NCBI GenBank assembly: GCA_946479255.1
Contig: CAMLFK010000010.1
Coordinates: 1 to 46,876 of the forward strand
Direction: 5' to 3'
Origin: an uncultured Oxalobacteraceae bacterium
Lineage (GTDB): Bacteria > Pseudomonadota > Gammaproteobacteria > Burkholderiales > Burkholderiaceae
DNA: 46,876 bases
Shown: positions 19,737 through 36,262 of the stretch, one piece after another
Numbering within the stretch: the first letter of the stretch is position 1
How the letters are laid out: each line of letters begins with the position of its first letter
Translations under genes and position numbers: made by a program
The notes under the pieces: model-generated
Databases searched by the model: none
What the model was told of the DNA's origin: nothing
The model's input: only the letters and a program-made list of their open reading frames with translations

Positions 19737-20714
19737 GGCACCGCCGCCGACCAGCGCGGCCATCCACGGACGGCCGCGCATGGTCACCTCCGTGTACGGG
19801 CAGTTCTCGTGGACTTTTTCGAGCATGCCCTGGCGCTGGCGCAGCTCCTGGCTGGGGTCCGGCGCATGCAAGGCATCACCGCGGTTCGGCTCGGTAGGCA
19901 CGCCGCTCTTTTGCTGCTTGAACATAGTGCGCTTCATGTAGGCATCGAGCAGCTTGGGCGAAGCGTAGCCGCCGGTAGCCACCATCTTCGCCGCGCCGCC
20001 CACGTACACGTCCCGTTTGGGATGCTCGGCGGCATACAGGATTGCCTTGGCCACCAGTTCCGGCGCATAGATCGGTGGCGGCAGGCTCGGCTCCTCCTCC
20101 ATGTAATTCTTGGCGTGCACCGCGAACATGGTGTCGATCGCCGCCGGCTTGATCAGCGTGACCGAGACCGGCGCGTCCTCGTGCTCGAGCTCCATCCGCA
20201 GCGAATCGGTGAAACCCTTGACGGCGTGCTTGGAGGCACTGTACATGCCCTGCAGCGGTACGGCCCGGTCCGACACTTCGCTGCCCAGGTTGATCAAGGC
20301 ACCGCCGCGCGCCTTGAGCAGCTTGACCGCCTCCAGCGAACCGTGCACCACGCCCCAAAAGTTGGTATCGAACAAGCGGTGGAAGTCTTCCAGCGACACG
20401 TCCTCGTTGCGGCCGAAGATCGAGATGCCGGCATTGTTGACCCAGGTATCGACACGCCCGAAGGTTTCGAGCGCTGTCGCGCTGATGCGTGCCACATCGT
20501 CCGGCAGGCCCACGTCCGCCACGACCGCCACCGCCTCGGTGCCGCTGCTGCGCAGCTCATCGCTCAATTCGCGCAAGGCCGCCTCGCCGCGCGCCGCCAG
20601 CACCAGCTGCGCCCCTTGCGCGGCCGCCATGCGCGCCGTGGTCAGGCCGATGCCGCTGGTCGCCCCGGTGATGACGACCACCTGGTCGGATAGTTTCTTC
20701 AGTTTCACGCCCAT
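19674..20714 (-). CDS. Short-chain dehydrogenase/reductase (SDR) family oxidoreductase
   Basis: About 346 residues. The N-terminal Rossmann fold carries TGATSGIG, NNAG (VNNAGISIFG) and the catalytic YSASK motif, so the core is intact. The protein is about 90 residues longer than a classical SDR: after the domain come a basic linker and a hydrophobic segment (AALVGGGALFAAW), possibly a membrane anchor. The start at 20714 has GGGAGAA upstream; longer frames lack a site. Substrate unknown. Its 3' end overlaps the acidic-protein gene. Confidence 0.87.
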   Translation of the reverse strand: MGVKLKKLSDQVVVITGATSGIGLTTARMAAAQGAQLVLAARGEAALRELSDELRSSGTEAVAVVADVGLPDDVARISATALETFGRVDTWVNNAGISIFGRNEDVSLEDFHRLFDTNFWGVVHGSLEAVKLLKARGGALINLGSEVSDRAVPLQGMYSASKHAVKGFTDSLRMELEHEDAPVSVTLIKPAAIDTMFAVHAKNYMEEEPSLPPPIYAPELVAKAILYAAEHPKRDVYVGGAAKMVATGGYASPKLLDAYMKRTMFKQQKSGVPTEPNRGDALHAPDPSQELRQRQGMLEKVHENCPYTEVTMRGRPWMAALVGGGALFAAWRLARTPGAGTGRIGR

Positions 20715-20813
20715 TCGGTTCTCCCTACCTTGTGTGCCTGAGGTATTGACCAGCGGCCGGCGCGTCAGTTCGGTGACACAGCTTCGACGACTACAACGCC
20801 CCATCCAAGTAAG

Positions 20814-20826
20814 GGGGTCAGACCCC
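20814..20826. repeat. GGGGTCAGACCCC palindrome
   Basis: A perfect 13-base palindrome in the gap before tonB, followed by ATCACGAGCTC. The start of the 31-bp repeats at 33.9-34.4 kb also reads GGGGTCAG with ACGAGCTC downstream, so this may be a diverged relative of the same REP-like family. It could alternatively be a simple hairpin. Confidence 0.45.
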
Positions 20827-20855
20827 ATCACGAGCTCGACAGTAGCTGGTGGCGG

Positions 20856-20872
20856 GCTGCGCGGTGTGCAGC
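20856..20872. promoter_or_regulatory. Putative upstream activator site 1 for tonB promoter
   Basis: Perfect inverted repeat GCTGC-N7-GCAGC, centred about 119 bases before the predicted sigma-54 transcription start of tonB. This is the normal range for enhancer-binding-protein sites. A second identical-geometry copy lies 31 bp (three helical turns) downstream. Confidence 0.6.
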
Positions 20873-20886
20873 AGCCGGCCAGCAGT

Positions 20887-20903
20887 GCTGCGTTTTGAGC
20901 AGC
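20887..20903. promoter_or_regulatory. Putative upstream activator site 2 for tonB promoter
   Basis: Perfect inverted repeat GCTGC-N7-GCAGC, extended to TGCTGC/GCAGCA, centred about 88 bases before the predicted start. Together with site 1 it forms a phased pair on the same face of the helix, as expected for cooperative binding of a sigma-54 activator. Confidence 0.6.
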
Positions 20904-20957
20904 AGGATTTCGCAGCCGGGTGAGCGCTTTCCGAGGGAACAGCTAGGGAACAGGGCG

Positions 20958-20973
20958 TGGCACGCTTCCTGCT
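20958..20973 (+). promoter_or_regulatory. Sigma-54 promoter of tonB-exbB-exbD
   Basis: TGGCACG-N4-CTGCT, with GG and GC separated by exactly 10 bases as required for -24/-12 promoters. Transcription would start near 20984, about 16 bases before the tonB ATG, leaving just the TAAGGAGG ribosome binding site. Confidence 0.75.
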
Positions 20974-20999
20974 GAGAGACAGGCATAAGGAGGATTGCC

Positions 21000-21710
21000 A
21001 TGTCTACACTGACTCTCGATTATCGTGCCCCGCTCTCACCCAGCCGGCGCGCGCCCAGCGCCGCCATCGCGGCCAGCCACAGTTTCGGCCAGGCATCGAC
21101 CCGCTGGCGCATGCTGCCCGTCGTAGCCGCAATTGCCGCCTTGCACATCGCGGCTGTCGGCGTGTTCAGCCGCGGCAGCGCAAGCCGCAGCTTGCCGCCG
21201 CAAGCCAAGCCGGTGACGATCGACATCGTTCCTATCCGCGAGGAAGTGCCGCCGCCACCGCCGAAGCCGGTCACGCCGCTTGTCGCCGCGACACCTGCCG
21301 CGCCTAGCCATAACTTGCCGGTAGTCAGCGAACCGAGCGCATCGAGCGCCAGTGCCGACGCCGTCCAGGTGGCCAGCGCGCCCTCGATTCCTTCGCCGGC
21401 CCCGCCACCGCCCGCGCCCGTGGTCGAGAAAGTGACCGAGCCGCGCGGCTACGCGGGCTACCTGAAGAATCCGGCGCCGGAATACCCACTGGCCGCACAG
21501 AAACGCGGCCTGGAAGGGCAGGTACTGCTCAAGGTGCACGTGCTGGCCACGGGCCAGCCCGACCAGGTCGCCGTCGCCAAATCCAGCGGCCACGCCATTC
21601 TCGATGACTCCGCCGTCAAGGCGGTCTTGCAGTGGGTGTTCGAACCGGCAAAACGGGGCCAGAACCCGATTGACGGCTGGGTACAAGTTCCCCTCAATTT
21701 CAAAATTTAA
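21000..21710 (+). CDS. tonB: TonB family energy transducer
   Basis: A 236-residue inner-membrane protein that passes proton-motive energy to outer-membrane receptors. One N-terminal membrane helix (about 37-56, LPVVAAIAALHIAAVGVF) is preceded by an unusually long cytoplasmic start of some 35 residues. A proline-rich periplasmic spacer (EVPPPPPKP, PAPPPPAP) and the TonB C-terminal domain (about 150-236, with the YPLAAQKRGLEGQVLL motif) follow. TAAGGAGG lies before the ATG. It is the first gene of the tonB-exbB-exbD operon, behind a sigma-54 promoter, and most likely serves the two receptors encoded next door. Confidence 0.93.
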   Translation: MSTLTLDYRAPLSPSRRAPSAAIAASHSFGQASTRWRMLPVVAAIAALHIAAVGVFSRGSASRSLPPQAKPVTIDIVPIREEVPPPPPKPVTPLVAATPAAPSHNLPVVSEPSASSASADAVQVASAPSIPSPAPPPPAPVVEKVTEPRGYAGYLKNPAPEYPLAAQKRGLEGQVLLKVHVLATGQPDQVAVAKSSGHAILDDSAVKAVLQWVFEPAKRGQNPIDGWVQVPLNFKI

Positions 21711-21741
21711 TTTCCCCCCACCATACTGAAAGGCAAAAAAT

Positions 21742-22455
21742 ATGAACGAGCAATACTTAAATCTGATCGTGCAGGGGTCGCTGTATGCGCTTGTGCTGTT
21801 TTCCATCCTGACCTGGGTGCTGATCATCGCCAAGGGCGCGCAGCACTGGCGGGTGTCGCGCCAGGACAAGGCGTACGCGCGCCAGTTCTGGAGTGCGACT
21901 TCGCTCGACACCGCAGCCGCGCTGCCGCGCGATGCCGGTCCCAAGTCGCGCGTGGCCAGCGTGGGCTTCGATGCGCTGTATGTGACCGATACGCAGGCCG
22001 GCCATGACCTGGAGCACAGCTGGGACCGCAAAGAGCTGCTCGAGCGCCATCTGCGTCAGCAGATCCAGAAGGAGCACGCCTCGCTCGAAAGCGGCCTGGC
22101 TGTGCTGGCATCGATCGGCAGTACCGCGCCCTTCGTCGGCCTGTTCGGCACTGTGTTCGGCATCATCCACGCGCTGTCGGCCATTGGCAAAAGCGGCTCG
22201 GCCAGTATCGACGTGGTGGCCGGCCCGATCGGTGAAGCACTGGTGGCCACCGGTGTGGGTATCGCGGTGGCGGTGCCGGCGGTCCTGGCTTTCAACTTCT
22301 ATGTGCGCCGCCTGAAGGTGTCCGCGCTGGAGCTGGATAACTACGCCGGCGACCTGGTCAACCTGGCGCAGAAGAGCGGCTTCCGGATCAACCGGGTCGT
22401 CCCTAGATCGGAAAGCGCCAGCGCGTCGCTGCCTGTCAATGGAGCATTCGCATAA
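21742..22455 (+). CDS. exbB: ExbB-type proton channel protein
   Basis: A 237-residue MotA/TolQ/ExbB family protein with three membrane segments (about 10-30, 128-150 and 178-200). The conserved GSTAPFVGLFGTVFGIIHAL region and the third helix GVGIAVAVPAVLAFN carry the family pore residues. It forms the inner-membrane proton channel together with ExbD and energises TonB. The spacing from tonB is 31 bp, and its stop overlaps the exbD start (TAATG), so the three genes are one operon. Confidence 0.94.
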   Translation: MNEQYLNLIVQGSLYALVLFSILTWVLIIAKGAQHWRVSRQDKAYARQFWSATSLDTAAALPRDAGPKSRVASVGFDALYVTDTQAGHDLEHSWDRKELLERHLRQQIQKEHASLESGLAVLASIGSTAPFVGLFGTVFGIIHALSAIGKSGSASIDVVAGPIGEALVATGVGIAVAVPAVLAFNFYVRRLKVSALELDNYAGDLVNLAQKSGFRINRVVPRSESASASLPVNGAFA

Positions 22456-22868
22456 TGGCCTTCTCGACTAGCTCAAGCGGCAGCGCGGACGTGCTCAGCG
22501 AGATCAACATCACGCCGCTGGTCGACGTGATGCTGGTGCTGATGGTGGTGTTCCTGCTGACGGCGCCGCTGCTCAATAACGTCGTCAAGATTAACCTGCC
22601 CAAGACCGCCACCACTGCGCCGGCCGACACGCCCAAGCCGGTCACGGTCAGCGTCGACGCGGCCGGCCAGGTGTTCATCGACAAGCGGGTGGTGGGGCTC
22701 GATGCGCTCGAGCCTGAACTCAAGCAGCTGGTGGCCGCATCGCCCGAGCTGGCACTGAGCCTGCAGGCCGATGAGGCGGTGCCGTACAAATCGGTGGCGA
22801 AAGCGATGGCGGCGATTTCGCGCAGCGGCGTGACCAAGCTGTCGGTGCTCACTGCCAGTGCCAACTAA
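22455..22868 (+). CDS. exbD: ExbD-type biopolymer transport protein
   Basis: A 137-residue ExbD/TolR family protein. One N-terminal membrane helix contains the essential aspartate in ITPLVDVMLVLMVVFLL, followed by a periplasmic domain (about 45-137). It completes the TonB-ExbB-ExbD motor. The start overlaps the exbB stop. The gene ends 16 bp before the convergent sigma-54 activator gene, with no evident terminator between. Confidence 0.94.
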   Translation: MAFSTSSSGSADVLSEINITPLVDVMLVLMVVFLLTAPLLNNVVKINLPKTATTAPADTPKPVTVSVDAAGQVFIDKRVVGLDALEPELKQLVAASPELALSLQADEAVPYKSVAKAMAAISRSGVTKLSVLTASAN

Positions 22869-22884
22869 GAGCAATCATGCTTTT

Positions 22885-23943
<1,059 letters not shown>

Positions 23944-23953
23944 GATGCGTCCT

Positions 23954-23982
23954 CGTGTGTGGCTTGTCAGCCTACGCACACG
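23954..23982. promoter_or_regulatory. Imperfect palindrome upstream of the sigma-54 activator
   Basis: CGTGTG at 23954-23959 and CACACG at 23977-23982 flank an inner GGCT/AGCC pair, about 10-40 bases before the activator start and after the upstream hydrolase gene. It may be an operator for control of the activator gene or a transcription-attenuating hairpin. I cannot decide between these. Confidence 0.3.
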
Positions 23983-24044
23983 GGACGCCTTTGAGAACGA
24001 ATGATTTTGCGCTTGCTTATGAACTTTCTAGCAAGGCCCCCGGA

Positions 24045-24938
24045 TCACCCCTTGGCTTTCAGGTGCTGGCGGAAGAAGTCGATCGTGCGCTGCCAGGCCA
24101 GCTTGGCGGCCGCCTCGTCATAGCGCGGCGTGGTGTCGTTGTTGAAACCATGCTCCACCGCCGGGTAGATGAAATGCTGGTAATCCACCTTGGCGTCGCG
24201 CAAAGCCGCCTCGTACGCAGGCCAGCCCGCGAGGATGCGGGTGTCCTTCTCGGCGTCGTGAATCAGCAAGGGCGCCTTGATCTTCTTTACTTCGGCGGCC
24301 GGCGGCTGGGCGCCATAGAAGGCGACCGCCGCGTCCAAGGTCGGCAGCTGGGTGGCCAGGTAATTGGCGACGCCGCCGCCGTAGCAGAAGCCCACCACGC
24401 CGACGCTGCCGTTGCCATCCTTGTGCTTCTTGAGGACGCCGGCGGCGGCGACGAAGTCCGCGCGGCTCTTGGTCTGATCGAGCTTGCCGAACAGTTCGCG
24501 TGCCTTGTCCTCGTCGCCGGGGTAGCCGCCCAGCGGATACAGCGCATCCGGTGCGAAGGCGATAAAGCCGTCGACCGCAAGGCGGCGCGCGATGTCTTCG
24601 ATGTGCGGATTCAGGCCCCGGTTCTCATGCACCACCAGCACTGTCGGCCGCTTGCCGCTTGCCTTCGCTGGCGTCACCAGGTAGCCGCGCAGGGTTCCGT
24701 AGCCGTTTGGCGACGGGTACTCCACGTAGCTGGCTTTGATGCGCGGATCGGCCGGCTGCACCACGGTGGCGGCGAAGCTCGGCGAGAGCGCCGCCAGCAG
24801 ACTCGCGCCGGTGGCACCGCCGACCGCATAGCGGCCGGCTGACGAGAGGAAACCGCGACGGTCGATATGACCGTGGACGTACTGGTCAAACAGCTTCAGG
24901 ACTTCTGGGTGAAAATCGTCTGCGGTCAAGCGGGTCAT
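24045..24938 (-). CDS. Dienelactone hydrolase family protein, Tat-exported
   Basis: A 297-residue alpha/beta hydrolase. An N-terminal DRRGFLSSAG twin-arginine motif with a following hydrophobic segment indicates export. The nucleophile is C185 in GFCYGGG, with D232 and H263 (VEHGFNND) completing the triad, and E105 in HENRG matches the glutamate that contacts the nucleophile in dienelactone hydrolase. The reaction is probably ester or lactone hydrolysis in the periplasm; the actual substrate is not known. It lies 37 bp after a TonB-dependent receptor gene, so the two are likely co-transcribed from the sigma-54 promoter upstream of the receptor. Confidence 0.88.
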   Translation of the reverse strand: MTRLTADDFHPEVLKLFDQYVHGHIDRRGFLSSAGRYAVGGATGASLLAALSPSFAATVVQPADPRIKASYVEYPSPNGYGTLRGYLVTPAKASGKRPTVLVVHENRGLNPHIEDIARRLAVDGFIAFAPDALYPLGGYPGDEDKARELFGKLDQTKSRADFVAAAGVLKKHKDGNGSVGVVGFCYGGGVANYLATQLPTLDAAVAFYGAQPPAAEVKKIKAPLLIHDAEKDTRILAGWPAYEAALRDAKVDYQHFIYPAVEHGFNNDTTPRYDEAAAKLAWQRTIDFFRQHLKAKG

Positions 24939-24975
24939 GGCTTCTCCAGTGGTTCAAAAGATCAAGTGAGTGTAA

Positions 24976-27468
24976 TTACAGCTTGGCTCGGAACACCAGT
25001 GCGACGGTCCGATCATACCCCGGTTGGCGGGTGACTGCGTTACTGCCGCTGTACGTGTTCGCGCCGGTCGCGTAGTCCTTGTCGAGCAGGTTTTTGCCGA
25101 CCACGGAGAACTCGTATTTACCGTTCGCCGTCAGCAACGACAAGCCGCCATCGACCAGCGAATAGGCCTTTTGCCAGGTCAGCGGCGACTGGGTCGCGGA
25201 CAGGTAGGAGCCCGAACGGTAGGACTCGTTGACGAACACCCGTCCCAGATAGCTGCCCAGCGGGAGCGTGTAATCGACGCCGGCGTTGACGATGACTTTC
25301 GGCGCCCCGTGCAGCTGGCGGCCGGCGAAGTTGACGGCCAGGGCGGTGGAGCTGTCCGGCTGGGTGGTCGGGAAGTCCAGGTAGATGGCGCGGTTGAACG
25401 AGGCGTTGAAGTTCAGCTTGAGATTGCGGGTGGCGGCGTAGTTCGCTTCGAGTTCCAGTCCGCGCGCACGCACGCCGGGGATGTTACCGAGATAGGTGCG
25501 CAGGCCGCTCGGGCTGGACAGGTCTTCCACCGTCAGGTTGGCCTGGTAGTCGGTGACCTTGGTCTGGTACAGGTTCACGTTGAGCAGCAGCGAACGGTTC
25601 AGCAGCAGGCTCTTGACGCCCAGTTCATAGTCGCGCGCTTTTTCCGGCGCTACGTTCAGCGGCGTGCCCAGCTGCGGGCCGTTGGCGGTGACGAATTCCA
25701 CCGCGCCCGACTTTTCGCCTTGCGAAGCCGAGGCGTACAGCAGCACCTCGTCATTAAGTTTATAGCTCGGGCTGAGCAGCCAGGACAGCGAGTTGTCGCT
25801 GATCGAAGCGCCTTCCTTCCAGTCGTACACGCCGCCGGCGCCGCCGATGGCGTTGATGTACAGCGCCTTGGCGGCGTTCCACGCGGCCAGGTCGGCCGCA
25901 TTGGCCAGGTTCAGGCCATACGCGCCGGCGCGGCTGTTGTCGGTACCGGTCTCGTTGGTCAGCGCGCTGCCGTTGCGATCGAGCTCGCGGCGGTTGCGGC
26001 CAGTTTTCTTCTCGTGCGTCTGGCGCAGGCCAAGCGTCAGCGTGCCGCGCTCGCTGATGTGCCAGTTCAGCTGGCCGAAGGCGGCCAGGCTGGTGGTCTT
26101 CGGTTCCAGCACATAAGAACGGTACACGCCGTCTTGCGAGGCGCGCAGCAGACCGCGGTACTGCGGCGCGGCCAGTGCGTTGTACTGCGCATTGCTGGCG
26201 TTGAAGGCGCCGGCGTCGGCACCGAAGGCGGTCGGATCGTCACTGTAGACTTCGGCCTTGAGCGCATAGAGTCCAACCTGGTAGTCGATCTTTCCTTTCA
26301 ATGGAGAGCTCAGGCGCAGCTCTTCGGAGAGCTGCTTGTTCCACAGCTGCTGGCCGCCGTCGGCGATGTCGAAGCGCGTCACGCCGCCGTTCTTGATGTC
26401 GAAGTGCTGCTCGCGGTAGGCCGTGATCGACGTGAGCGAGAACTCGCCCAGCTGCTGGTTGATCTCGGCCGAAATGCCGCTTTGCTTGGTGCGTTGCGGA
26501 CGCGCCTTGACGTCTTCGATCTGCTTGTTGCCGAACACCGGACGATAGGCGCTGCCGTCCGAGTTGTTGAAGTAGCTGCGTGCCAGGCGGCTGGCGAAGG
26601 TGGTGGTACGGGCCGGGCCGTCGGCGAAGTTGGCCGGGCCGTTATCGACCAGCTGCGACTTGTTGCCGTTTTCCTGGGACTGGATCTGGTCGAGGATGAT
26701 GCGGGCCGACAGGTCTTTGCTTGGCGTGAAGAGGAACTGCAGGCGCCCGCCGATGCGGTTGGTCTCGTTCCAGGTTTCCGGGCCGGACTGCCAGGTGTTT
26801 TTCAGGACGCCATCCTTCTTGTTGATGAAGAAGGAGCCGCGGTAGGCCAGCACGCCATCCTGAATCGGACCGGTCGCGGAGAATTTGCCTTCGAGGTTGT
26901 TGTAGCTGCCCACGCGCGCTTCGTACACATAGCCGGGTGTGAAGCTCGGCGCCTTGGTGGTGATGTTGATGACGCCCAGCGTGGTGTTCTTGCCGAGCAG
27001 GGTGCCTTGCGGTCCGCGGATGACTTCAATGCGGTCGAGGTCCACCCAGTCGGTCCAGTTCTGGCCCACATAGGTACTGGCCACGCCATCGACGATCACG
27101 CCGACGCTCGGCTCCATGGTGTCGTTGGCGGCGTTCTTGCCGATGCCGCGGATCGAGATGCTGGTCTGGCGCGGGTTACTGCCGAACAGTCCCAGGTTCG
27201 GTACCTTCTGCGTCAGGCCGGAGATGCCGACCACGTTGTCGCGCTCGAGCGTGGCGCCGCTGACCACCGAGACCGGCACCGGCACATCCTGGGCGATCTC
27301 TTCGCGGTTGCGCGAGGTGACGGTGACGTTGTCGAGCGTGACGACTTCGCTTTCGGCCTGGGCATGGCCTTGCGCGGCACTCAATAGCGACAGTGCGGCG
27401 ATAACGGCGGCAGCGCCGGCGCGCAGTTTGAATGGATGGGCGGCGGGGGCGATTCTATAAGTATGCAT
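24976..27468 (-). CDS. TonB-dependent outer-membrane receptor 1
   Basis: About 830 residues. Signal peptide (cleavage after GHAQA), a TonB box (VVTLDNVTVTSR), a plug domain with VPVPVSVVSG, SIRGIGKN and IEVIRGPQGTLLGKNTTLG, then a long beta-barrel ending in VALVFRAKL. The usual terminal aromatic residue is replaced by Leu. It is of the large class used for siderophores, aromatics, carbohydrates or organic sulfur compounds; the ligand cannot be read. The start at 27468 has AAGGAAG upstream. A near-perfect sigma-54 promoter lies about 40-60 bp before it. Confidence 0.93.
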   Translation of the reverse strand: MHTYRIAPAAHPFKLRAGAAAVIAALSLLSAAQGHAQAESEVVTLDNVTVTSRNREEIAQDVPVPVSVVSGATLERDNVVGISGLTQKVPNLGLFGSNPRQTSISIRGIGKNAANDTMEPSVGVIVDGVASTYVGQNWTDWVDLDRIEVIRGPQGTLLGKNTTLGVINITTKAPSFTPGYVYEARVGSYNNLEGKFSATGPIQDGVLAYRGSFFINKKDGVLKNTWQSGPETWNETNRIGGRLQFLFTPSKDLSARIILDQIQSQENGNKSQLVDNGPANFADGPARTTTFASRLARSYFNNSDGSAYRPVFGNKQIEDVKARPQRTKQSGISAEINQQLGEFSLTSITAYREQHFDIKNGGVTRFDIADGGQQLWNKQLSEELRLSSPLKGKIDYQVGLYALKAEVYSDDPTAFGADAGAFNASNAQYNALAAPQYRGLLRASQDGVYRSYVLEPKTTSLAAFGQLNWHISERGTLTLGLRQTHEKKTGRNRRELDRNGSALTNETGTDNSRAGAYGLNLANAADLAAWNAAKALYINAIGGAGGVYDWKEGASISDNSLSWLLSPSYKLNDEVLLYASASQGEKSGAVEFVTANGPQLGTPLNVAPEKARDYELGVKSLLLNRSLLLNVNLYQTKVTDYQANLTVEDLSSPSGLRTYLGNIPGVRARGLELEANYAATRNLKLNFNASFNRAIYLDFPTTQPDSSTALAVNFAGRQLHGAPKVIVNAGVDYTLPLGSYLGRVFVNESYRSGSYLSATQSPLTWQKAYSLVDGGLSLLTANGKYEFSVVGKNLLDKDYATGANTYSGSNAVTRQPGYDRTVALVFRAKL

Positions 27469-27509
27469 TGCAGTGCTTCCTTGTTGTGGTGACGATTGCC
27501 AGCTTCTAT

Positions 27510-27525
27510 TGCAAAGCACGTGCCA
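27510..27525 (-). promoter_or_regulatory. Sigma-54 promoter of receptor 1 and hydrolase
   Basis: On the minus strand TGGCACG-N4-TTGCA, an exact match to the -24/-12 consensus with 10 bases between GG and GC. The start of transcription is expected near 27499, about 31 bases before the receptor ATG at 27468. Confidence 0.85.
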
Positions 27526-27574
27526 CATCGCAGGTTATTGATTTATATGGTTTAGTTTCTTGAGATGCTGAGTC

Positions 27575-27625
27575 GCCGCTGTTGAGCAGCCAGCAGCGCT
27601 GTCGGCGCGCCGCTGGCTGTGCAGC
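27575..27625. promoter_or_regulatory. Putative activator sites upstream of receptor 1
   Basis: GCCGC-N7-GCAGC at 27609-27625 (one mismatch from the tonB sites) and GCCGC-N6-GCAGC at 27575-27590 sit about 117 and 83 bases before the predicted start, close to the positions of the two tonB sites. An 8-bp perfect inverted repeat CAGCCAGC / GCTGGCTG (27587-27594 and 27612-27619) also spans the segment, so a hairpin after receptor 2 is an alternative reading. Confidence 0.45.
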
Positions 27626-27645
27626 AGTGGATCAGACGCAGTGAA

Positions 27646-29739
27646 TCAAAAGTATTGGCGCAGGCTGACCCGCAAGGTGCGCGGCTCGAGCGGGTGCACC
27701 AGCCGGCCATCGATGCCGCCGCCGCAGGCGCCGCTTTGCTGCTCGGCGCGGGTGCAGGCGCCGCCCCAGTACTCGATGTCGTTGCCGTCGCGGTCGAACA
27801 GGTTGGTCACATCGAAGGACAGCTGCAGCTTCGGGGTGAATCGGTATCCCAGCTTGACGTTGGCGGTCGGCAGGGCGCGCGAGCGCTGGGTGTTGGTCGT
27901 CTCCAGCGCATACGCGCCGATGTAACGGGCGCGCAGGCCGCCGAACCAGCTACCACCGGGATCGACACCGACACCGATGGACGCCGTCACCGGAACCGCA
28001 TTGGGTACGTGAATGCCACCGTCGCTGGCTTGATTGAAACGCGCACGCGACAGCGCCAGATCGGCATCGACGATTACCCCGGGATACGGCGTAATGTAGT
28101 TGGACCACTCGATGCCGCGCCGGTGCGAGGCTCCGCGCGCTTCCGTCACGCCGGCGTCGCCGACGAACACCAGTTCGGACGCAATCGACATGCGCCACAA
28201 GGACAGGCTGCTGACCCAGCCGGGCAAGGGCTGGGTGCGCCATCCGAGTTCAGCACCCCTGGCGCGGGCGAACAGGTCGAGCCGCTCGGCCGCGCTGGCG
28301 TCAAGCGGGTTGACGGTGGACGTGGCGCCGCGCACGTCGTTGCTATGAAAACCGTGGCCCCAGTTGGCGAAGACCTCCGTGCGGCCCTGTTCGCCGAAGG
28401 GAGACCAGGCGATGCTCAGCTTCGGGCTGGTCTGGCTTGCGGACACCTTGCCGCCGTTGACCACGTTGAGCGCGCCGCCGGTGGCGCGCACGTCGGCACG
28501 GATGCGGTCGTAGCGTGCTCCGAGTGTGGTGCGAAGATACGGCGACCAGTCGGAGTGCACGCTGGTGAACAGCGCGGCGGCGGTTTCGTCGGCCGTGTCC
28601 TGCCGAATGGTGTCGACGCGGCGGCGTTCCACGGTGCGATACAGGCCAAGCACGGCGATATCGTCATGGCGCAGCTGGCCGCCCACCATCAGCTCATGGC
28701 GCCCGGCGACCCAACTGCGGCGTGCATCGCCGCCCCACAGGACGCGCTGGTCGGCCTGCTCGTGCTGGTCGCCGTCAAGGCCTTCGATGAAACCGGAAGG
28801 GGCAGAGAACAGGTTCAGGCGATAGCGCGACACATAGCCGCTGACGCGCGCCGTGCCTTGCGCGCTGCTGCGCGCCCACTCGCCGGTCAGGCTGTGGCGC
28901 GTGGTCACGCCGCCGTCTTGCGGCGACAGCGCGCCAAAGCGGCCGATCTCGCCGCTGGCGATGGCCCGTTCCGGCACATGCTCGGTGGCGTTCCAGCGCG
29001 AACGGTAAGCCAGCGCGGTCAGTGCGTAACCATTGACCGGGCTGCCGTTCGACCAGCGCAGCAGGGCATTGGCCTTGCGGAGGTCCTCGGGCTGATCCCA
29101 CGGGCCATCGTTGACGGCCAGTTCCAGCGCCGCCATCAAGTGATGACCGCTGATGGTGGTACTGCCCGCGGCGAGGGCGCGGCGGTAGCCGTGCGGACCG
29201 CCGGTCAGATCGAGAAAGGGCGCGTCGATTGCGCGCCGATAGTCGATGCGCGCGGAACCGGTGATCGAAAAGTCGCCATCGTCGGCCGCGTACACGCCCT
29301 TGCGGTAGAGGATCGTATCGACCAGCTCAGGAATCACGGGGTTCAGGTCCAGATAGCCCTGGCCGTGCGCATGGCTGGCGATGTTGACCGGCATGCCCGA
29401 CAGGGCGATGGCGAAATCGCTGCCATGGTCGAGGTTGAACCCGCGCAGGAAGTACTGGTTGGCCTTGCCGTCACCGGAATGCTGGGTGACGATCATGCCG
29501 GGAATGGTCTCGGCCAGTTCTGCCGCGCGCAGCAGCGGGCGCGTGGCGATCTGCTCGGCGCTGATGGTGCCTTCGGTGGCCGAATCGGCCAGGCCGAACT
29601 GCATGCCGGCGCCGGAGCGGACCGTGACTTCTTTGAGAATCGGGATGCCGCTGGCGTGGGCCCCGCTGGCGCACAGCGCCAGCAGGGCCAGCACGCCCGG
29701 CCTTAATTGCGGGCGGAGCACCACAGCGATGGTTTTCAT
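27646..29739 (-). CDS. TonB-dependent outer-membrane receptor 2
   Basis: A 697-residue receptor. A signal peptide ends near ASGAHA. Next come a TonB-box-like ILKEVTVRSG, the plug domain with IPGMIVTQHSGDGKANQYFLRGFN, and a barrel ending in LRVSLRQYF with the aromatic C terminus. The plug sequence FLRGFNLDHGSDFA belongs to a receptor subgroup often linked to unknown or metal-related uptake. The gene is 42 bp after a DUF6644-like gene and reads as the last gene of the rhodanese-DUF6644-DUF6644-receptor operon. Ligand unknown. Confidence 0.92.
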   Translation of the reverse strand: MKTIAVVLRPQLRPGVLALLALCASGAHASGIPILKEVTVRSGAGMQFGLADSATEGTISAEQIATRPLLRAAELAETIPGMIVTQHSGDGKANQYFLRGFNLDHGSDFAIALSGMPVNIASHAHGQGYLDLNPVIPELVDTILYRKGVYAADDGDFSITGSARIDYRRAIDAPFLDLTGGPHGYRRALAAGSTTISGHHLMAALELAVNDGPWDQPEDLRKANALLRWSNGSPVNGYALTALAYRSRWNATEHVPERAIASGEIGRFGALSPQDGGVTTRHSLTGEWARSSAQGTARVSGYVSRYRLNLFSAPSGFIEGLDGDQHEQADQRVLWGGDARRSWVAGRHELMVGGQLRHDDIAVLGLYRTVERRRVDTIRQDTADETAAALFTSVHSDWSPYLRTTLGARYDRIRADVRATGGALNVVNGGKVSASQTSPKLSIAWSPFGEQGRTEVFANWGHGFHSNDVRGATSTVNPLDASAAERLDLFARARGAELGWRTQPLPGWVSSLSLWRMSIASELVFVGDAGVTEARGASHRRGIEWSNYITPYPGVIVDADLALSRARFNQASDGGIHVPNAVPVTASIGVGVDPGGSWFGGLRARYIGAYALETTNTQRSRALPTANVKLGYRFTPKLQLSFDVTNLFDRDGNDIEYWGGACTRAEQQSGACGGGIDGRLVHPLEPRTLRVSLRQYF

Positions 29740-29781
29740 GGGGTGGGTCTGCCTTATGCTTGTTTTATTGGGTGTTTGAGA

Positions 29782-30255
29782 TCAGACAAAGCCGATGGCG
29801 CGGCCGAACAGGCCGACTGCGAACCACAGGCTGAGGGACAGCACGGCGGTGATCCGTGCGAGCGACGGCGACGGGTGCTGCCGGCGCGTGATGTTGCGGT
29901 ACAAGGTGAACTGGATCGTCAGCGCCGCGATCAGCAGGATCATTTTCGGAACGAAGGCCGTATTGCCGGCGTAGTGCACCGGGGCGGACAGGAACAGCAG
30001 CACGCCCGAGGCGATGGTCAGGGTCAGTCCCAGGTGTTGGGCCCAACGGGTCGAGCGTACTATGTCGGGCAGGCTCTGGGCACGCAGTCCCACGCCCAGC
30101 AGGCGCAGGTTGACGATCACCAGTGAGGTGAGCAGCAGGATCAGGCCCAGTACATGGCCGAGCTGGATGCCCAGCACGGCGGTCGGGCTGGCGGCACGCA
30201 GCATCAGGCCGGGAGCGCTTTGCTGGGCGGCGTGGGCGAAATCGATCAGAGACAT
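29782..30255 (-). CDS. DUF6644-like integral membrane protein (copy 2)
   Basis: A 157-residue membrane protein with four or five predicted helices. It shares its plan with the next gene upstream: GHVLGLILLLTSLVIVNLRLLGVGL here, GIHLLGLALSFGLILFTDLRLIGVF there. Histidines in the first helix and in the middle (HLGL, HYAGNTAF) could bind a metal or heme, but this is not established. A GAGGAG ribosome binding site precedes the start at 30255, 8 bp after the stop of the paralogue. I assign the family from memory as DUF6644. Function unknown. Confidence 0.75.
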   Translation of the reverse strand: MSLIDFAHAAQQSAPGLMLRAASPTAVLGIQLGHVLGLILLLTSLVIVNLRLLGVGLRAQSLPDIVRSTRWAQHLGLTLTIASGVLLFLSAPVHYAGNTAFVPKMILLIAALTIQFTLYRNITRRQHPSPSLARITAVLSLSLWFAVGLFGRAIGFV

Positions 30256-30263
30256 GATGCTCC

Positions 30264-30755
30264 TCAGGCGAAATAGGGAATCAGGCGGCCGCCCACTGTC
30301 GCCGCGCTCCAGAACGACAGCGAGATCCAGCCTGCCGTGACCGCGGCCCGCGGTGCGCGCGGCTGGTCCAGCCAGGTGCTGCCGCGCCGATGCAGCAGCC
30401 ACTCGAAGGCCGCTGCATTGATCAGCGCGACCACCATGGCAGCCACCTTCCACAGGAAGGCCGGGTTCTCGATCATGGTGTCCGCCTCGGCCCAGAACAG
30501 CAGGAAGCCGGTCAGGAAGGTCAGGCCGAAGCCGGCCAGGATCAGGCGGCGCAGCTGGCCGTGGATCTGCGAGATCGGCACGGAGGGCATGAACACGCCG
30601 ATCAAACGCAGGTCGGTGAACAGGATCAGGCCGAACGACAAGGCCAGGCCAAGCAGGTGGATGCCTTCGATCAGCGGGAACAGAATCAACGATTCGCGCA
30701 AGGCGGTACCGATCTGCGATTCCGCGATCGCGACGGCGATCTCAGTGGACGACAT
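30264..30755 (-). CDS. DUF6644-like integral membrane protein (copy 1)
   Basis: A 163-residue protein with four or five predicted helices. Helix 1 contains LFPLIEGIHLLGLALSFG with an intramembrane histidine, followed by the LRLIGVF motif shared with copy 2. It starts 9 bp after the rhodanese-like gene and is followed 8 bp later by copy 2, so two diverged membrane subunits are made together, perhaps as a heterodimer. I recognise the family as DUF6644 but with no known activity. Confidence 0.75.
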   Translation of the reverse strand: MSSTEIAVAIAESQIGTALRESLILFPLIEGIHLLGLALSFGLILFTDLRLIGVFMPSVPISQIHGQLRRLILAGFGLTFLTGFLLFWAEADTMIENPAFLWKVAAMVVALINAAAFEWLLHRRGSTWLDQPRAPRAAVTAGWISLSFWSAATVGGRLIPYFA

Positions 30756-30764
30756 GACAGCTCC

Positions 30765-31244
30765 TTATTTCGCCGCGACCTTCGGCGCAGGCGCCGCGAT
30801 CCTGGTCAGTTTGCCGCCTTCGGCCTCATAGTCCTGCGCGCCGACCGCGCCTGCCACCTTGAAGCCTTTGGCCAGCAGCGCATCGGCGGCACGCAGGGCG
30901 CGGCCGGCGTGGTTGGAGACGGTGATCAGGGTTCGGTCCTGGGGAATGAATACGCTGCCTTTTTCGATGTCGGCCAACTGCACGCTCAGGTAGGTTGGAA
31001 AGCCGCCGATGGTGGAGATCTCGTCAGGACGGCGAACGTCGACGATCAGGACCTGGTCGGGATAGGTGAGATAGCCGTCGAGCTGCTTGCGATTGAGCTT
31101 GGGCGAGATCGGCGTGGCCTTCTCGGCTGCCGGGGCAGCTGGCGCGGCCTCCTGTGCCAGTACGCTTGGCGTGGCCAGGACGGCGGCCGCGAAAGCGATG
31201 GCAGTTACAAGGTGGCGGGTGATTGGGTTCTTGGTTGGTTTCAT
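30765..31244 (-). CDS. Exported rhodanese-like protein without catalytic cysteine
   Basis: A 159-residue protein with a cleavable signal peptide (ends VLAQ, residue 31) and one rhodanese domain (about 50-148). The family core VLIVDVRRPDEI is present, but the active-site loop reads TVSNHAGRA: where rhodaneses have Cys there is S110. Sulfur-transfer activity is therefore unlikely; a binding or scaffold role in the periplasm is more probable. First gene of the operon leading to receptor 2. GGAG precedes the ATG, and a sigma-54 promoter lies about 45-60 bp upstream. Confidence 0.8.
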   Translation of the reverse strand: MKPTKNPITRHLVTAIAFAAAVLATPSVLAQEAAPAAPAAEKATPISPKLNRKQLDGYLTYPDQVLIVDVRRPDEISTIGGFPTYLSVQLADIEKGSVFIPQDRTLITVSNHAGRALRAADALLAKGFKVAGAVGAQDYEAEGGKLTRIAAPAPKVAAK

Positions 31245-31286
31245 GATGGCTCCTAGGTTTGAATGGGTGGTCCCGATGGCTTTAAT

Positions 31287-31302
31287 AGCAGGGACTGTGC
31301 CA
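31287..31302 (-). promoter_or_regulatory. Sigma-54 promoter of the rhodanese-like operon
   Basis: On the minus strand TGGCACA-N4-CTGCT, with GG and GC separated by 10 bases. Start expected near 31276, about 32 bases before the rhodanese-like ATG. Confidence 0.72.
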
Positions 31303-31375
31303 AGCCCGCCTTTTTCTTTAAGTGCTTGATTTGACGGGCGCCACGCCGCGCCGGCGCTGGCTGTCTGGGTACAGG

Positions 31376-31392
31376 GCTGTGCCGTTTGCAGC
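31376..31392. promoter_or_regulatory. Putative shared activator site
   Basis: GCTGT-N7-GCAGC, one mismatch from the perfect tonB sites. It is centred about 108 bases before the minus-strand start and about 157 bases before the plus-strand start. Confidence 0.4.
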
Positions 31393-31514
31393 AGCGCTGT
31401 CGGGTTCCTGCTGCACGCTCATCAGGGCACGCGGGTTGCCGCATACCGTGGGTTCAAGCCAAATAGCCCGTCGATTCAAGCGCTTGCGCCTGTCGGCCCG
31501 GGCGGAGAGCGGCA

Positions 31515-31530
31515 TGGCATGGAGCTTGCT
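31515..31530 (+). promoter_or_regulatory. Sigma-54 promoter of the DUF6152-like operon
   Basis: TGGCATG-N4-TTGCT, one base away from the consensus, with 10 bases between GG and GC. Start expected near 31541, about 52 bases before the ATG at 31593. Confidence 0.75.
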
Positions 31531-31592
31531 GAAAGGAGGGCTGTGCCGCTGTGAACCGCAGCTAATTCAATGTCGCTTTTCTGGAGAACCGC

Positions 31593-32030
31593 ATGACCGA
31601 CACAACGTCACGCCTGCTGCGCAGGCTCTCTTTTACGCTCGTCACGGTGGCCGCCGGCGCCGCGCTGCTGGCCGGCGCTCCTGCCAAGGCGCACCATGCC
31701 TTCGCCGCCGAATTCGACGCCAAGCAGCCGATTGAACTGAAGGGCAAAGTCACCAAGGCCAAGTGGGTCAATCCGCACAGCTGGCTGTACTTCGACGTGA
31801 CCGGTGCTGACGGCAAGGTGACCAACTGGGGCGTGGAGTTCGGCGCACCGAACGCGCTGGCCAACAAAGGCCTGTCCAAAGCCGACATCAAACCGGGCGA
31901 TATTGTCTCGGTCAAAGGCTACCGCTCCAAGAACGGCGAGGCTTATGGCTACAGCGTGTACGTCACGCTGGCTGACGGGCGAACCTTCCAGACCGGCGGC
32001 GCGCAGGATGCACCTGGAGGCGGGGCATAA
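31593..32030 (+). CDS. DUF6152-like exported protein
   Basis: A 145-residue protein with a signal peptide ending PAKAHHAF. The mature part begins with a double histidine (HHAFAAEFDAKQPIELKG), which is typical of this family and could bind a metal at the mature N terminus. A small beta-rich domain follows, with KAKWVNPHSWLYFDV and GDIVSVKGYRSKNG. It resembles an OB-fold, but that is inference. Its stop overlaps the next start (TAATG). First gene of a three-gene operon behind a sigma-54 promoter. Activity unknown. Confidence 0.78.
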   Translation: MTDTTSRLLRRLSFTLVTVAAGAALLAGAPAKAHHAFAAEFDAKQPIELKGKVTKAKWVNPHSWLYFDVTGADGKVTNWGVEFGAPNALANKGLSKADIKPGDIVSVKGYRSKNGEAYGYSVYVTLADGRTFQTGGAQDAPGGGA

Positions 32031-32812
32031 TGGCTTTGACGCTTTTGAACTTTCGCCGTCAGCACGCGCGCCTGCTGGCCGCGGTGCTGCTGTCGCTGGC
32101 CACGGTGGCGGCGGCAGCGGCCGACAAGATCCCACGCACGGCGAACGGCAAGCCCGACTTCTCCGGCATCTGGGAGAGCATGAGCGGCGCCGACTACGAT
32201 CTTGAACCGCATGCGGGCCGGCGCGACACGCCGCCGGGCGCAGGCGTGATCGAAGGCGGCGGCACCATTCCCTATCTGCCGGAAGCGCTGGAAAGGAAGC
32301 GCAAGAACTTCGAAGGCCGCAATACGCTCGATCCGCGCCTGAAGGGCTGGACCCTGGGCACGCCGCGCGCGGTGTACTACCCGGCGCCGTTCCAGATTTT
32401 CCAGCGCGCGCGCGACCTTACCCTGGTGTACCAGTTCGGCCAGCCGGTGCGCACCATCCACACCAATGGAACGCCGCATCCGAAGGGCGAACCGAACGAG
32501 TTCTGGCTGGGCGACTCGCGCGGCCGCTGGGAAGGCGACACCTTGGTGGTGGACGTGAAGGACTTCAATGACGAGACCTGGCTGGACCGCGCCGGCAACT
32601 ACCACAGCGACGCGCTGCACGTGGTCGAGCGCTGGAAGTTTTTGGACGCGAACACCATTGAATACAAGGCGCGGATCGAAGACCTCAAAGTGTTCTCGGC
32701 GCCGTGGACCATCGGCGTGATCCTGCATCGTCACCGCGAGAAGAACTCCCAGATCATCGAGGACTACCGCTTTACGCACGACTACGAACAGCATTACCCA
32801 CCAAAAAAATGA
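32030..32812 (+). CDS. Exported protein of unknown function, PDFSGIW type (copy 1)
   Basis: A 260-residue protein with a signal peptide (cleavage near AAAADK, residue 35) and the start motif GKPDFSGIWE. The central block FGQPVRTIHTNGTPH and DSRGRWEGDTLVVDVKDF is shared with the next gene, so the two are diverged tandem paralogues. The family is common in soil bacteria, usually next to TonB-dependent receptors, but I know of no assigned activity. It overlaps the DUF6152-like stop codon, showing translational coupling. The predicted location is periplasmic or outer membrane-associated. Confidence 0.75.
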   Translation: MALTLLNFRRQHARLLAAVLLSLATVAAAAADKIPRTANGKPDFSGIWESMSGADYDLEPHAGRRDTPPGAGVIEGGGTIPYLPEALERKRKNFEGRNTLDPRLKGWTLGTPRAVYYPAPFQIFQRARDLTLVYQFGQPVRTIHTNGTPHPKGEPNEFWLGDSRGRWEGDTLVVDVKDFNDETWLDRAGNYHSDALHVVERWKFLDANTIEYKARIEDLKVFSAPWTIGVILHRHREKNSQIIEDYRFTHDYEQHYPPKK

Positions 32813-32841
32813 GCAGCCACGCGCACTTAGACAGGAAGACC

Positions 32842-33804
32842 ATGAAGAACCAACTCACCAGGCTGGGCGTGCTGGGTGCTGCCCTGACGCTGCCGGCGCT
32901 GGCACTGGCGCAGACCACGGCACCAGTGTCCCCGCCATCGCAGCCGGCCAAGCAGAAGATCACGTTCGAACCGACGTTCAGCAAGGTGGTGCCGGGCCCG
33001 TGGAAGGGCAAGCGCATCGCCGGCGGTCAGCCGGATATTGAAGGGCACTGGTCCAATACCGTCGCCAATCACAGCAACTGGACCGATCCGCAGGGGACCA
33101 TTCCGCACGACCCCAATCCGCGCAAGCTGACTACCACGCGCGAGCAGCGCGCGCCGAGCCGGGTCAGCGATCCGCCGGACGGCCAGGTGCCGTTCCAGCC
33201 GTGGGCGCGCGAGAAGCAGCAGGAATTCGTCAAGAACTTCCACAACCCGACCAAACCGGAATACATCGAACCGCTGGCGCGCTGCGCGCCGGGCGGGGTG
33301 CCCAAATCGCTGATCTGGCATGGCTACGAGATCCGCCAGTATCCGGCTTACGTGGTGTTCCTGTTCGGTTCCGGCACACGCATCATCCATCTGGATGGCA
33401 AGCCGCACCTGCCGGCCAACATCAAGCTGTGGAACGCCGACTCGCGCGGGCGCTGGGAAGGCAACACGCTGGTCGTCGACGTGACCAACAACAACGCCAA
33501 GGCTTTGTTCGGCCGGACTGGCGAGTTCGCCAGCGAGAACGTCCACATTAGCGAGCGCTACACGTTCAGCAACGACGGCAAGCAGTACACGTATGAAGCG
33601 ACCTTCGACGATCCGACCGTGTACACGCGCAAGTGGACGGCGACGATCCCGGCGCGCCGGCGCACTGCCGAGAACGCCATCGACGGTTGGCATTTTGAAG
33701 TTGCGGTCAATGAAGCAAATGGGAAGGAGGTGATCGAGCGTTACGAGCAGGTATGCACCGAGAACAATATCGGTTTTGGAAATGTGGCGGTAACGCCACG
33801 CTAA
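32842..33804 (+). CDS. Exported protein of unknown function, PDFSGIW type (copy 2)
   Basis: A 320-residue protein with signal peptide LGVLGAALTLPALALAQ. It carries QPDIEGHWSN in place of PDFSGIW, then FGSGTRIIHLDGKPH and DSRGRWEGNTLVVDVTNNN, matching copy 1. Compared with copy 1 it has an extra middle region with LARCAPGGVPKSL and another cysteine near the end (QVCTENNIGFGN). The start at 32842 is favoured by the signal peptide and AGGAAG; ATG 32809 overlapping the previous stop is an alternative. Last gene of the operon, followed by a strong terminator. Confidence 0.75.
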   Translation: MKNQLTRLGVLGAALTLPALALAQTTAPVSPPSQPAKQKITFEPTFSKVVPGPWKGKRIAGGQPDIEGHWSNTVANHSNWTDPQGTIPHDPNPRKLTTTREQRAPSRVSDPPDGQVPFQPWAREKQQEFVKNFHNPTKPEYIEPLARCAPGGVPKSLIWHGYEIRQYPAYVVFLFGSGTRIIHLDGKPHLPANIKLWNADSRGRWEGNTLVVDVTNNNAKALFGRTGEFASENVHISERYTFSNDGKQYTYEATFDDPTVYTRKWTATIPARRRTAENAIDGWHFEVAVNEANGKEVIERYEQVCTENNIGFGNVAVTPR

Positions 33805-33817
33805 TTGTAGTCGTGGG

Positions 33818-33860
33818 TCCCCCCTTGAGCCCCCCCCTTGGGGCCCCCCTGGGGGGGGCG
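33818..33860. other. C-run/G-run self-complementary segment
   Basis: Alternating runs of up to eight C and eight G directly after the stop of the last operon gene can fold into a very stable stem or a G-quadruplex-like structure. It lies just before the conventional terminator. Homopolymer length here should be treated with caution. Confidence 0.5.
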
Positions 33861-33875
33861 TAGTAGAGTGGGTTT

Positions 33876-33902
33876 GCCCTCGCTTCGGCGAGGGCTTTTT
33901 TT
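33876..33902 (+). terminator. Rho-independent terminator of the DUF6152-like operon
   Basis: A perfect 8-bp stem GCCCTCGC / GCGAGGGC with a TTCG tetraloop is followed by seven T. Classic intrinsic terminator on the plus strand. Confidence 0.88.
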
Positions 33903-33930
33903 GTCGATTGAAATCGTTGTCTCCAACCCC

Positions 33931-34416
33931 GGGGTCAGTGCCCACATTGATATACGAGCTCATCCGTTCAAGTTAATCGCTGCCTATTTGGCTCGGATTT
34001 CGGCACAAAAATCGCCACCTCTTAATGTCAAAACGGGCGCTTATTAAAAGCGAGTTGAAATCGGCTTGATCACCGACGAATTGGCCATGCTTCCCGCCTG
34101 AATGCTGGCGTTTATCCGCCACGATGCGAAGATATTCATGTGACTTGGATGCGAGAGCGCGAATGAGGCTTGTGGCCAGTTTGCGGGTGTCAGTGCCCAC
34201 ATTGATATACGAGCTCATCAAGTACCGGGATTCGCGATCCGGTGAATATGGCAATCGGGACGGATGCTTGGATAACCGCGGTCGTCGGCTCGGCGATGAA
34301 TGCGGGGAGGCCCCGCCGTGGGCTCCAGCGGGGATATGAGACGGTATTTTGGGGGCGGGACCGGGATATTTTTATATTCGCTGTTGAGCTCGTATATCAA
34401 TGTGGGCAGTGACCCC
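33931..34416. repeat. REP/MITE-like repeat region, three 31-bp copies
   Basis: A 31-base unit beginning GTCAGTGCCCACATTGATAT and ending ACGAGCTCATC occurs at 33934-33964 and 34189-34219 in the same direction. It occurs inverted with about one mismatch at 34386-34416 (ATATCAATGTGGGCAGTGAC). The outer copies form a long inverted repeat enclosing about 420 bases without a credible gene. Two copies are preceded by GGGG or GGGT. The arrangement looks like a REP cluster or a small non-autonomous element. No transposase is present in the window. Confidence 0.7.
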
Positions 34417-34421
34417 AGGGT

Positions 34422-35030
34422 TTAGGGGTTTGCTGCTGGGCTTGGCTTTTGGGCTTGGAGCGGGGCCGGCCATGCCGCTGCGCTCGGGCCCTTTGTCTTG
34501 GGGTACCAGTAGACGCTGTGGCAGTGCTCGCAGGCCTGGTCGATGCGGGCGCCAAGCGCGAGCAGGCGGGCGGCATCTTTGTTGTCGATGGCGGCTACCG
34601 CTTCAGCTGCGGCATCGTGCAGCCGGCGCGCGGCGGCATCGAAGCCGGGACGGGCGGTGGCTATGCTTTGCTGTACTTGCTGGGGCGTGGAGACGCCTTC
34701 GACGTCGGCATCTTCCGTTTCCTTGCCAGCATGGACTACCGGCCGGCCAGGGATCCGTAACAGGTTGGCGGACTCCTGCAGGGCGATGGCGTAGTTGCGC
34801 ACGCTTTGCCATTCCTGGTCGGTGCGCGGTTGCCGTTCTTCGATGCCCTTGGCGGTGGTCTCGCTGCTGACCGATTCCCACAGGGCGTCGGCGGAGGGAT
34901 CGATGATAGCGACCATCAGGTCCTGGATCGAGGCGGATGGCTGGAACGCGGACGCGGCCGGCGCTTGCTGCTGGGGCTTGGTGCAGCCAGTTAATGCAAG
35001 AATGAGGATGGCGGTGAGTGGTCTTTTCAT
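34422..35030 (-). CDS. c-type cytochrome-like lipoprotein
   Basis: A 202-residue protein with lipoprotein signal (LTGC, Cys16) and one heme-binding motif CEHCH near residue 167, preceded by a helical region (FDAAARRLHDAAAEAV, LLALGARIDQAC). The helix-rich plan with the heme motif near the C terminus is like cytochrome c' and related c-type cytochromes. The tail is rich in Pro and Ala. It would be anchored in the membrane with its heme in the periplasm. It lies after the sulfate-binding-protein gene on the same strand, but a terminator hairpin separates them. Confidence 0.72.
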   Translation of the reverse strand: MKRPLTAILILALTGCTKPQQQAPAASAFQPSASIQDLMVAIIDPSADALWESVSSETTAKGIEERQPRTDQEWQSVRNYAIALQESANLLRIPGRPVVHAGKETEDADVEGVSTPQQVQQSIATARPGFDAAARRLHDAAAEAVAAIDNKDAARLLALGARIDQACEHCHSVYWYPKTKGPSAAAWPAPLQAQKPSPAANP

Positions 35031-35077
35031 GGCGTGCTGGCGGCTTCTTTTGCCGACTTTTCGGCGCTTGAATGAGA

Positions 35078-35099
35078 AACGCCCTCGATCGAGGGCGTT
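35078..35099 (-). terminator. Terminator of the sulfate-binding-protein gene
   Basis: A perfect 22-base palindrome (arms AACGCCCTCGA / TCGAGGGCGTT) lies just downstream of the sulfate-binding-protein stop. On the minus strand it is followed by a T-rich stretch, fitting an intrinsic terminator. Confidence 0.7.
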
Positions 35100-35122
35100 G
35101 TGCTGGCTGCTGCTTTCGCTAT

Positions 35123-36139: not shown

Positions 36140-36262
36140 CTGGAACACTCTTTTCTTAGGTGAGGTGGAGTGTGTAGATTACCGATTTGGTTTCCAGAAA
36201 CGAAGGAATTTAATCGCTTATCCTTAGTCGCTTTTTGTTGGATGCCGCGCGCGCTAATGCAT

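Follow-up and report, generated by a model that had tools for sequence, protein, structure and literature searches.

TonB systems are generally taken to serve iron uptake, and sigma-54 activators to act as switches for nitrogen, flagella, or carbon. In Pseudomonas aeruginosa, the genes tonB2-exbB-exbD are described as strongly up-regulated by sulfate starvation and as having no reported iron regulation (PMC3377617). In Pseudomonas sp. UW4, the sulfate-ester receptor SftP is encoded beside the ats genes (PMC3596284), and the msu operon is reported to group with sfnR (PMC8234197). The stretch analyzed here, the whole 46,876 nucleotides of contig CAMLFK010000010.1 from an uncultured Oxalobacteraceae bacterium (hereafter the window), contains four operons preceded by sigma-54 sites and, among them, a gene for a sigma-54 activator. 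Together these quite probably form a sigma-54 regulon controlled by an activator of the SfnR type, with sulfur scavenging through the outer membrane as its most likely job, a reading drawn from sequence comparisons.

The activator resembles Pseudomonas SfnR, which serves the msu and sfn genes, in being a sigma-54 activator without a sensor domain and in having its clade and enhancer palindrome in common with activators encoded after msuE-led operons, the comparison being with these msu-linked clade activators. In contrast to Pseudomonas SfnR, whose known targets are sulfone and sulfonate enzymes, the targets here are a TonB energizer, receptors, and DUF proteins. The locus is also like tonB2-exbB-exbD of P. 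aeruginosa and P. fluorescens, a second TonB energizer reported as induced by sulfate starvation (PMC3377617), and in one Pseudomonas locus (L153) the TonB-ExbB-ExbD cluster lies near cysA, cysW, and sbp. However, the Pseudomonas loci L153 and L155 differ in having no sigma-54 site of ≥13 and an SfnR-like frame without GAFTGA. These frames (L153:7984–8913; L155 near 11389–12183) stand beside tonB-exbB-exbD and apparently also lack the DNA-binding end, which suggests an activator turned into something else. As with SftP, the window encodes TonB-dependent receptors in what is probably a sulfur-scavenging locus, but no sulfatase is found here and the likeness is one of locus type. The literature search found no paper joining a sigma-54 enhancer-binding protein with a TonB-dependent receptor and ExbB. 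To the preliminary description of the locus, the present analysis adds the enhancer dyads, the assignment of the activator to the SfnR type, and the sulfate-linked promoter of its gene.

Four sigma-54 sites with a 10-base GG–GC spacing had been placed in that description at the positions given in Table 1, and all four are confirmed as a real observation in the sequence. The −24 GG and −12 GC elements of a sigma-54 promoter lie 10 bases apart in each, all sites are intergenic and correctly oriented, their ends fall 27, 42, 43, and 63 bases before a start codon, and they hold the top four scores of the 46.9-kb window under an approximate matrix, whose weights were not drawn from a data set. They had been called matches to TGGCAC-N5-TTGC, which is exact only for the site at 27510, with one mismatch at each of the other three. 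Their placement before tonB-exbB-exbD, the receptor 1–hydrolase pair, the rhodanese-like operon, and the DUF6152 operon stands, with correctly oriented genes at 4/4. No comparable sites had been noticed before the other genes checked, and the next gene-preceding site scores 10.9; the fifth-best score (14.1, at 22750) lies inside exbD and was set aside, as was a candidate at 31425 (9.1). Among 100 simulated windows, the mean number of sites scoring ≥14.9 was 0.77 (maximum 4; observed 4), and at most one such site stood in an upstream position, where all four observed sites stand; with gene calls from a simple codon-usage caller, the chance of 4/4 upstream under random placement is ∼8e-7. Similar scores at many random sites, proposed as a refuting observation, were looked for in 20 stretches (400 kb) of a single contig from the closest relative compared, and this background held four sites of ≥14.9, one of them intergenic and ≤150 bp from a gene start, and none with an enhancer of ≥10 bits.

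The closest relative compared (G101, locus L121) encodes the activator together with the products of all four operons, and three of the four sigma-54 sites are kept there, ahead of tonB (TGGCACGGATCCTGCT), the rhodanese-like gene, and DUF6152. The receptor 1 promoter is not universal: it is absent from L121, where receptor 2 runs into receptor 1 across a 34-bp gap, but in the rearranged locus of G352 (L122) sigma-54 sites precede receptor 1 as well as the DUF6152, rhodanese-like, and DUF6644 genes. The proposal of sigma-54 control by the activator of the locus is strongly supported by the conserved sites, the enhancers, the GAFTGA motif, and the presence of rpoN in 6/6 relatives searched. In L121, DUF6644 and receptor 2 are separated by an extra gene (L121:5162–5665) that the window operon lacks.

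From loci of related activators, 83 regions lying upstream of intergenic sigma-54 sites were searched for shared motifs; the set contains near copies and divergent pairs, and merging overlapping or near-identical regions leaves 64. The search returned the palindrome CTGYTGC-N4-GCARCAG, for which no claim is made that the motif is unpublished. The palindrome still emerged in window-free training on 79 of the 83 regions, with a likelihood of 435 vs 143–162 for three simulated sets, and five of the top six window hits of this window-free matrix fell inside the three promoter regions, which make up 1.3% of the window. With L121 and L122 excluded too, four of the top five window hits lay in promoter regions, and the top six hits of L122 lay inside its own promoter regions. 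All three promoter regions of the window carry the enhancer motif of a sigma-54 promoter, as a motif in sequence, and the divergent rhodanese-like and DUF6152 operons have one dyad pair in common. Enhancers of ≥10 bits were present in 60/83 clade regions (44/64 distinct) vs 3/54 regions from loci of other activators, and one of these three positive control regions (L008) is itself inside the clade. The spacing in regions with two dyads is 20–22, 30–33, or 41–42 bp, near whole helical turns, in 22/29 distinct ones, a count given with no chance comparison. The exact integration host factor (IHF)-type consensus between the enhancer pair and the rhodanese-like promoter is the only exact match in the window (31/100 shuffles also contain one) and recurs at the equivalent place in L121; exact matches occur in 14/83 clade regions (some counted twice) vs 0.23 in shuffles.

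The activator has the AAA+ sigma-54 interaction domain (PF00158) with GAFTGA, and this domain begins at residue 25, leaving no N-terminal sensor domain, as in SfnR-type proteins. A helix-turn-helix-like segment (NQV.TA..LGISRN) at the C-terminus is conserved across the clade; the window protein has no Pfam match there, and PF02954 is listed for some close relatives. In a midpoint-rooted tree of 65 rows (omitting L153, L155, L082, L083, L133, L075, and two of every three of L009–L080), the window activator clusters with those of L121 and L122 (98/93), and this cluster sits within a 42-row group (100/98), which includes the Pseudomonas activators of L004–L006 and so places the protein in the same clade as msu-linked activators. 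The gene order of L004 is MsuE, SsuD/MsuD, an MsuC-like protein, and the activator, the first two above and the third below family cut-offs, an order with which the reported grouping of msu and sfnR is consistent, and the promoter of this msuE-led operon carries the palindrome as CTGTTGCCCTGGCAACAG; the L005 promoter carries the palindrome too. Among 13 genes directly downstream of enhancer-bearing clade promoters, a hand-picked subset of all such genes, nine are sulfur-type (two MsuE, two SsuD-like, one NtaA/DmoA-type, one TauD-like, and three SsuA-like, several below cut-offs), and the other four are an exporter-type ATP-binding cassette (ABC) protein, an aldolase-type protein, and two without a hit. 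Because it has no sensor domain, has its clade and palindrome in common with an msuE-led operon, and is tied to sulfur genes, the activator is classed from sequence as SfnR-type.

Upstream of the activator gene lies a promoter-like region of its own. From 33 upstream stretches, 23 were used (operon-internal genes, a mis-set start, and one duplicate were left out), and a 26-bp element recurs at ≥18 bits in 16/23 loci, with a motif likelihood of 234 vs 93–100 for shuffled sets. The distance from the element to a TANNHT −10-like hexamer is exactly 20 nt in 16/17 loci vs 1.2 expected in shuffles, a count in which L001 and L133 represent one gene and L124–L126 are near copies. When 650 genes were ranked by this element, the best beyond activator genes were the sbp gene in L142, an ssuF/Mop-like gene located ahead of an activator, and two CysT-like permease genes (Mop and CysT being names read from the sequences), and the element also precedes sbp in L130 as well as in L142. 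The element would naturally be read as a site for a CysB-type LysR regulator; a simple sigma-70 scan of 20700–34500 (3 matches vs 1.8 expected) did not call the promoter region. The view of the locus as a single self-contained regulon consequently needs to be divided: that the activator controls all four operons is strongly supported, but the activator gene has its own non-sigma-54 promoter-like region. Since that region is conserved and its element also precedes some sulfate-transport genes, the regulon probably does not stand alone, and an outside (sulfate) signal would enter through the activator gene.

Under low sulfate, a CysB-type LysR regulator would switch on the promoter of the activator gene, as the conserved element suggests, and the amount of the activator would set its activity, given the lack of a sensor domain. 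The activator would then bind the paired palindromes, which lie ∼60–130 bp upstream of −24, and open sigma-54 polymerase at the four promoters, with IHF-type bending at the rhodanese-like one. The predicted products are a dedicated TonB-ExbB-ExbD energizer, two receptors, a hydrolase, and membrane and exported proteins, which would import and handle a compound that is probably sulfur-containing. The activator gene lies downstream of the receptor 1–hydrolase genes on the same strand, so read-through could add positive feedback. In its fullest form, as a sulfur-dedicated TonB import system of Oxalobacteraceae in which the energizer, two receptors, and the DUF6152, DUF6644, and exported families serve as new parts of organosulfur uptake under a CysB-type to SfnR-type to sigma-54 cascade, this proposal is one towards which we lean with some reserve. 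The regulon gives families of unknown function a testable condition, namely sulfate starvation, and the palindrome pair with the −24/−12 site provides a sequence rule for mapping SfnR-type regulons in other genomes.

A number of observations weigh against the sulfur-scavenging regulon or parts of it, and three other explanations were considered. The best-surviving of these, although unlikely, is that the regulon is real and serves the uptake of carbon or lipid-like compounds, with the sulfur link a matter of activator ancestry only. Consistent with this, family scans recognized no known desulfurization enzyme among the genes of the four operons, and four of the 13 clade targets are not sulfur-type. 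The family of the 32030–32812 protein is very large, with at least 7980 hits in the protein collection, and the predicted structure of this protein, set aside as too uncertain (predicted local distance difference test score 69.6), may be a beta-barrel carrier-like fold similar to lipid-binding barrels (template-modeling score to target ∼0.5–0.6, root-mean-square deviation ∼6). Counting against the main reading, the window was among the training sequences for the activator-gene element, 7/23 activator genes lack a strong copy, and only 2/9 called sbp homologues or fragments have one. At msuE of L004 the element scores just 2.6 (genes at the msuE place score 9.2 in L005 and 8.2 in L006), and the window's own sbp gene has a weak copy (7.5 bits, 53 bp upstream) and no sigma-54 site before it. 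Against the carbon or lipid explanation stands the activator gene of the window, which carries the element that also precedes some sulfate-transport genes.

An iron or siderophore uptake locus under sigma-54 is very improbable. A TonB system with two receptors would suit it, as would the resemblance of receptor 1 in sequence to siderophore receptors; against solved structures, receptor 1 has only distant matches, the nearest being pesticin, colicin I, and siderophore receptors. In P. aeruginosa, the TonB2-ExbB1-ExbD1 complex is described as coupling energy to the transport of iron (PMC8120321). However, the receptor scores well below the NCBIfam cut-offs, the activator clade is tied to sulfur genes, and the P. 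aeruginosa tonB2 locus is described elsewhere as induced by sulfate starvation, with no iron regulation reported (PMC3377617).

That the motif matches are due to chance and the operons use sigma-70 promoters has next to no probability: the bare consensus is not enriched (65 window matches with ≤2 mismatches vs 76.9 expected by shuffling), which led to the rejection of consensus counting alone as a test, but score together with position carries the significance, the rank, conservation, and enhancers of the sites argue against chance, and the sole sigma-70 match close to the starts of these operons (20995–21023) overlaps the tonB start codon. The remaining contrary points concern the enhancers and the wider clade. 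Isolated enhancer-like matches are common, the 400 kb of the relative containing 40 that reach 10 bits, and the mean maximum score in simulated windows is 14.1 bits; strong isolated hits are thus not rare by chance, and the case depends on where the hits lie rather than on their scores alone. Enhancers of ≥10 bits are missing from 23/83 clade regions, and those of the tonB promoter are weaker than the others, likewise in L121 (10.2 and 10.1 bits). No sigma-54 site of ≥13 was found in the examined stretch of the related activators' loci L124, L128, and L153–L158. Locus L158 contains homologues of the DUF6152, DUF6644, and rhodanese-like genes; the highest-scoring site before them reaches only 12.0, at the rhodanese-like gene, and the two best enhancer hits of the locus (20.3 and 18.6; 31 bp apart) precede the same gene.

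Table 1. Regulatory sites and genes of the regulon and its surroundings in the window (strand given where it applies).
Feature	Position	Strand	Details
Sigma-54 site before tonB-exbB-exbD	20958–20973	+	TGGCACGCTTCCTGCT; score 15.9, rank 3
Sigma-54 site before receptor 1–hydrolase	27525–27510	−	TGGCACGTGCTTTGCA; score 19.6, rank 1
Sigma-54 site before rhodanese-like/DUF6644/DUF6644/receptor 2 operon	31302–31287	−	TGGCACAGTCCCTGCT; score 14.9, rank 4
Sigma-54 site before DUF6152 operon	31515–31530	+	TGGCATGGAGCTTGCT; score 17.1, rank 2
Enhancer dyad, tonB promoter	20885–20902		13.8 bits
Weaker enhancer dyad, tonB promoter	20857–20874		7.4 bits
Proximal enhancer dyad, receptor 1 promoter	27579–27596		18.1 bits, rank 1 with window-free matrix
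Distal enhancer dyad, receptor 1 promoter	27610–27627		12.9 bits; 31 bp from proximal
Shared enhancer dyad, divergent rhodanese-like and DUF6152 promoters	31377–31394		11.6 bits; outside top ten in stricter hold-out
Second shared enhancer dyad, rhodanese-like/DUF6152	31408–31425		15.9 bits; 31 bp from first
Exact IHF-type consensus	31319–31331	−	between enhancer pair and rhodanese-like promoter
Promoter region of activator gene	23969–24020	−	element ATAAG..ATCATTCGTTC (24020–23995), 20 nt, TAGGCT (23974–23969)
Sigma-54 activator, classed as SfnR-type	22885–23943	−	352 residues; PF00158 AAA+ from residue 25; GAFTGA; no sensor domain
TonB	21000–21710	+	PF03544
ExbB/TolQ-type	21742–22455	+	PF01618
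ExbD/TolR-type	22455–22868	+	PF02472
Dienelactone-hydrolase-family protein (DLH), YghX-like	24045–24938	−	PF01738; NF041440 below cut-off
TonB-dependent receptor 1	24976–27468	−	PF00593, PF07715
TonB-dependent receptor 2	27646–29739	−	PF00593, PF07715
DUF6644 membrane protein	29782–30255	−	PF20349
DUF6644-like membrane protein	30264–30755	−	PF20349 just below cut-off
Exported rhodanese-like protein without catalytic Cys	30765–31244	−	no Pfam hit; weak rhodanese-domain match
DUF6152 protein	31593–32030	+	PF19649
Exported protein, large unnamed family	32030–32812	+	no Pfam hit
Exported protein, last gene of DUF6152 operon	32809–33804	+	no Pfam family; terminator-like hairpin at 33876–33895
Sulfate ABC transporter substrate-binding protein gene (sbp)	35123–36148		∼1.2 kb past terminator-like hairpin of DUF6152 operon

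The TonB, ExbB, and ExbD genes are adjacent on one strand, the arrangement of a single-operon energizer. The rhodanese-like protein, which has only distant matches among solved structures, has Ser at the place of the catalytic Cys in 5/5 sequences compared (the window and four called homologues), and it may consequently bind rather than transfer sulfur. No paper on DUF6152 was found in the literature search. The frames 32827–33963 (−) and 35072–36163 (+) were rejected as shadow frames by codon use. Between the terminator of the DUF6152 operon and a cytochrome-c′-like gene, a repeat of 34–38 nt with the core GTGCCCACATTGATATACGAGCTC occurs in three copies at 33925–34422, two direct and one inverted, which look like a small mobile or repetitive extragenic palindromic (REP)-type element.

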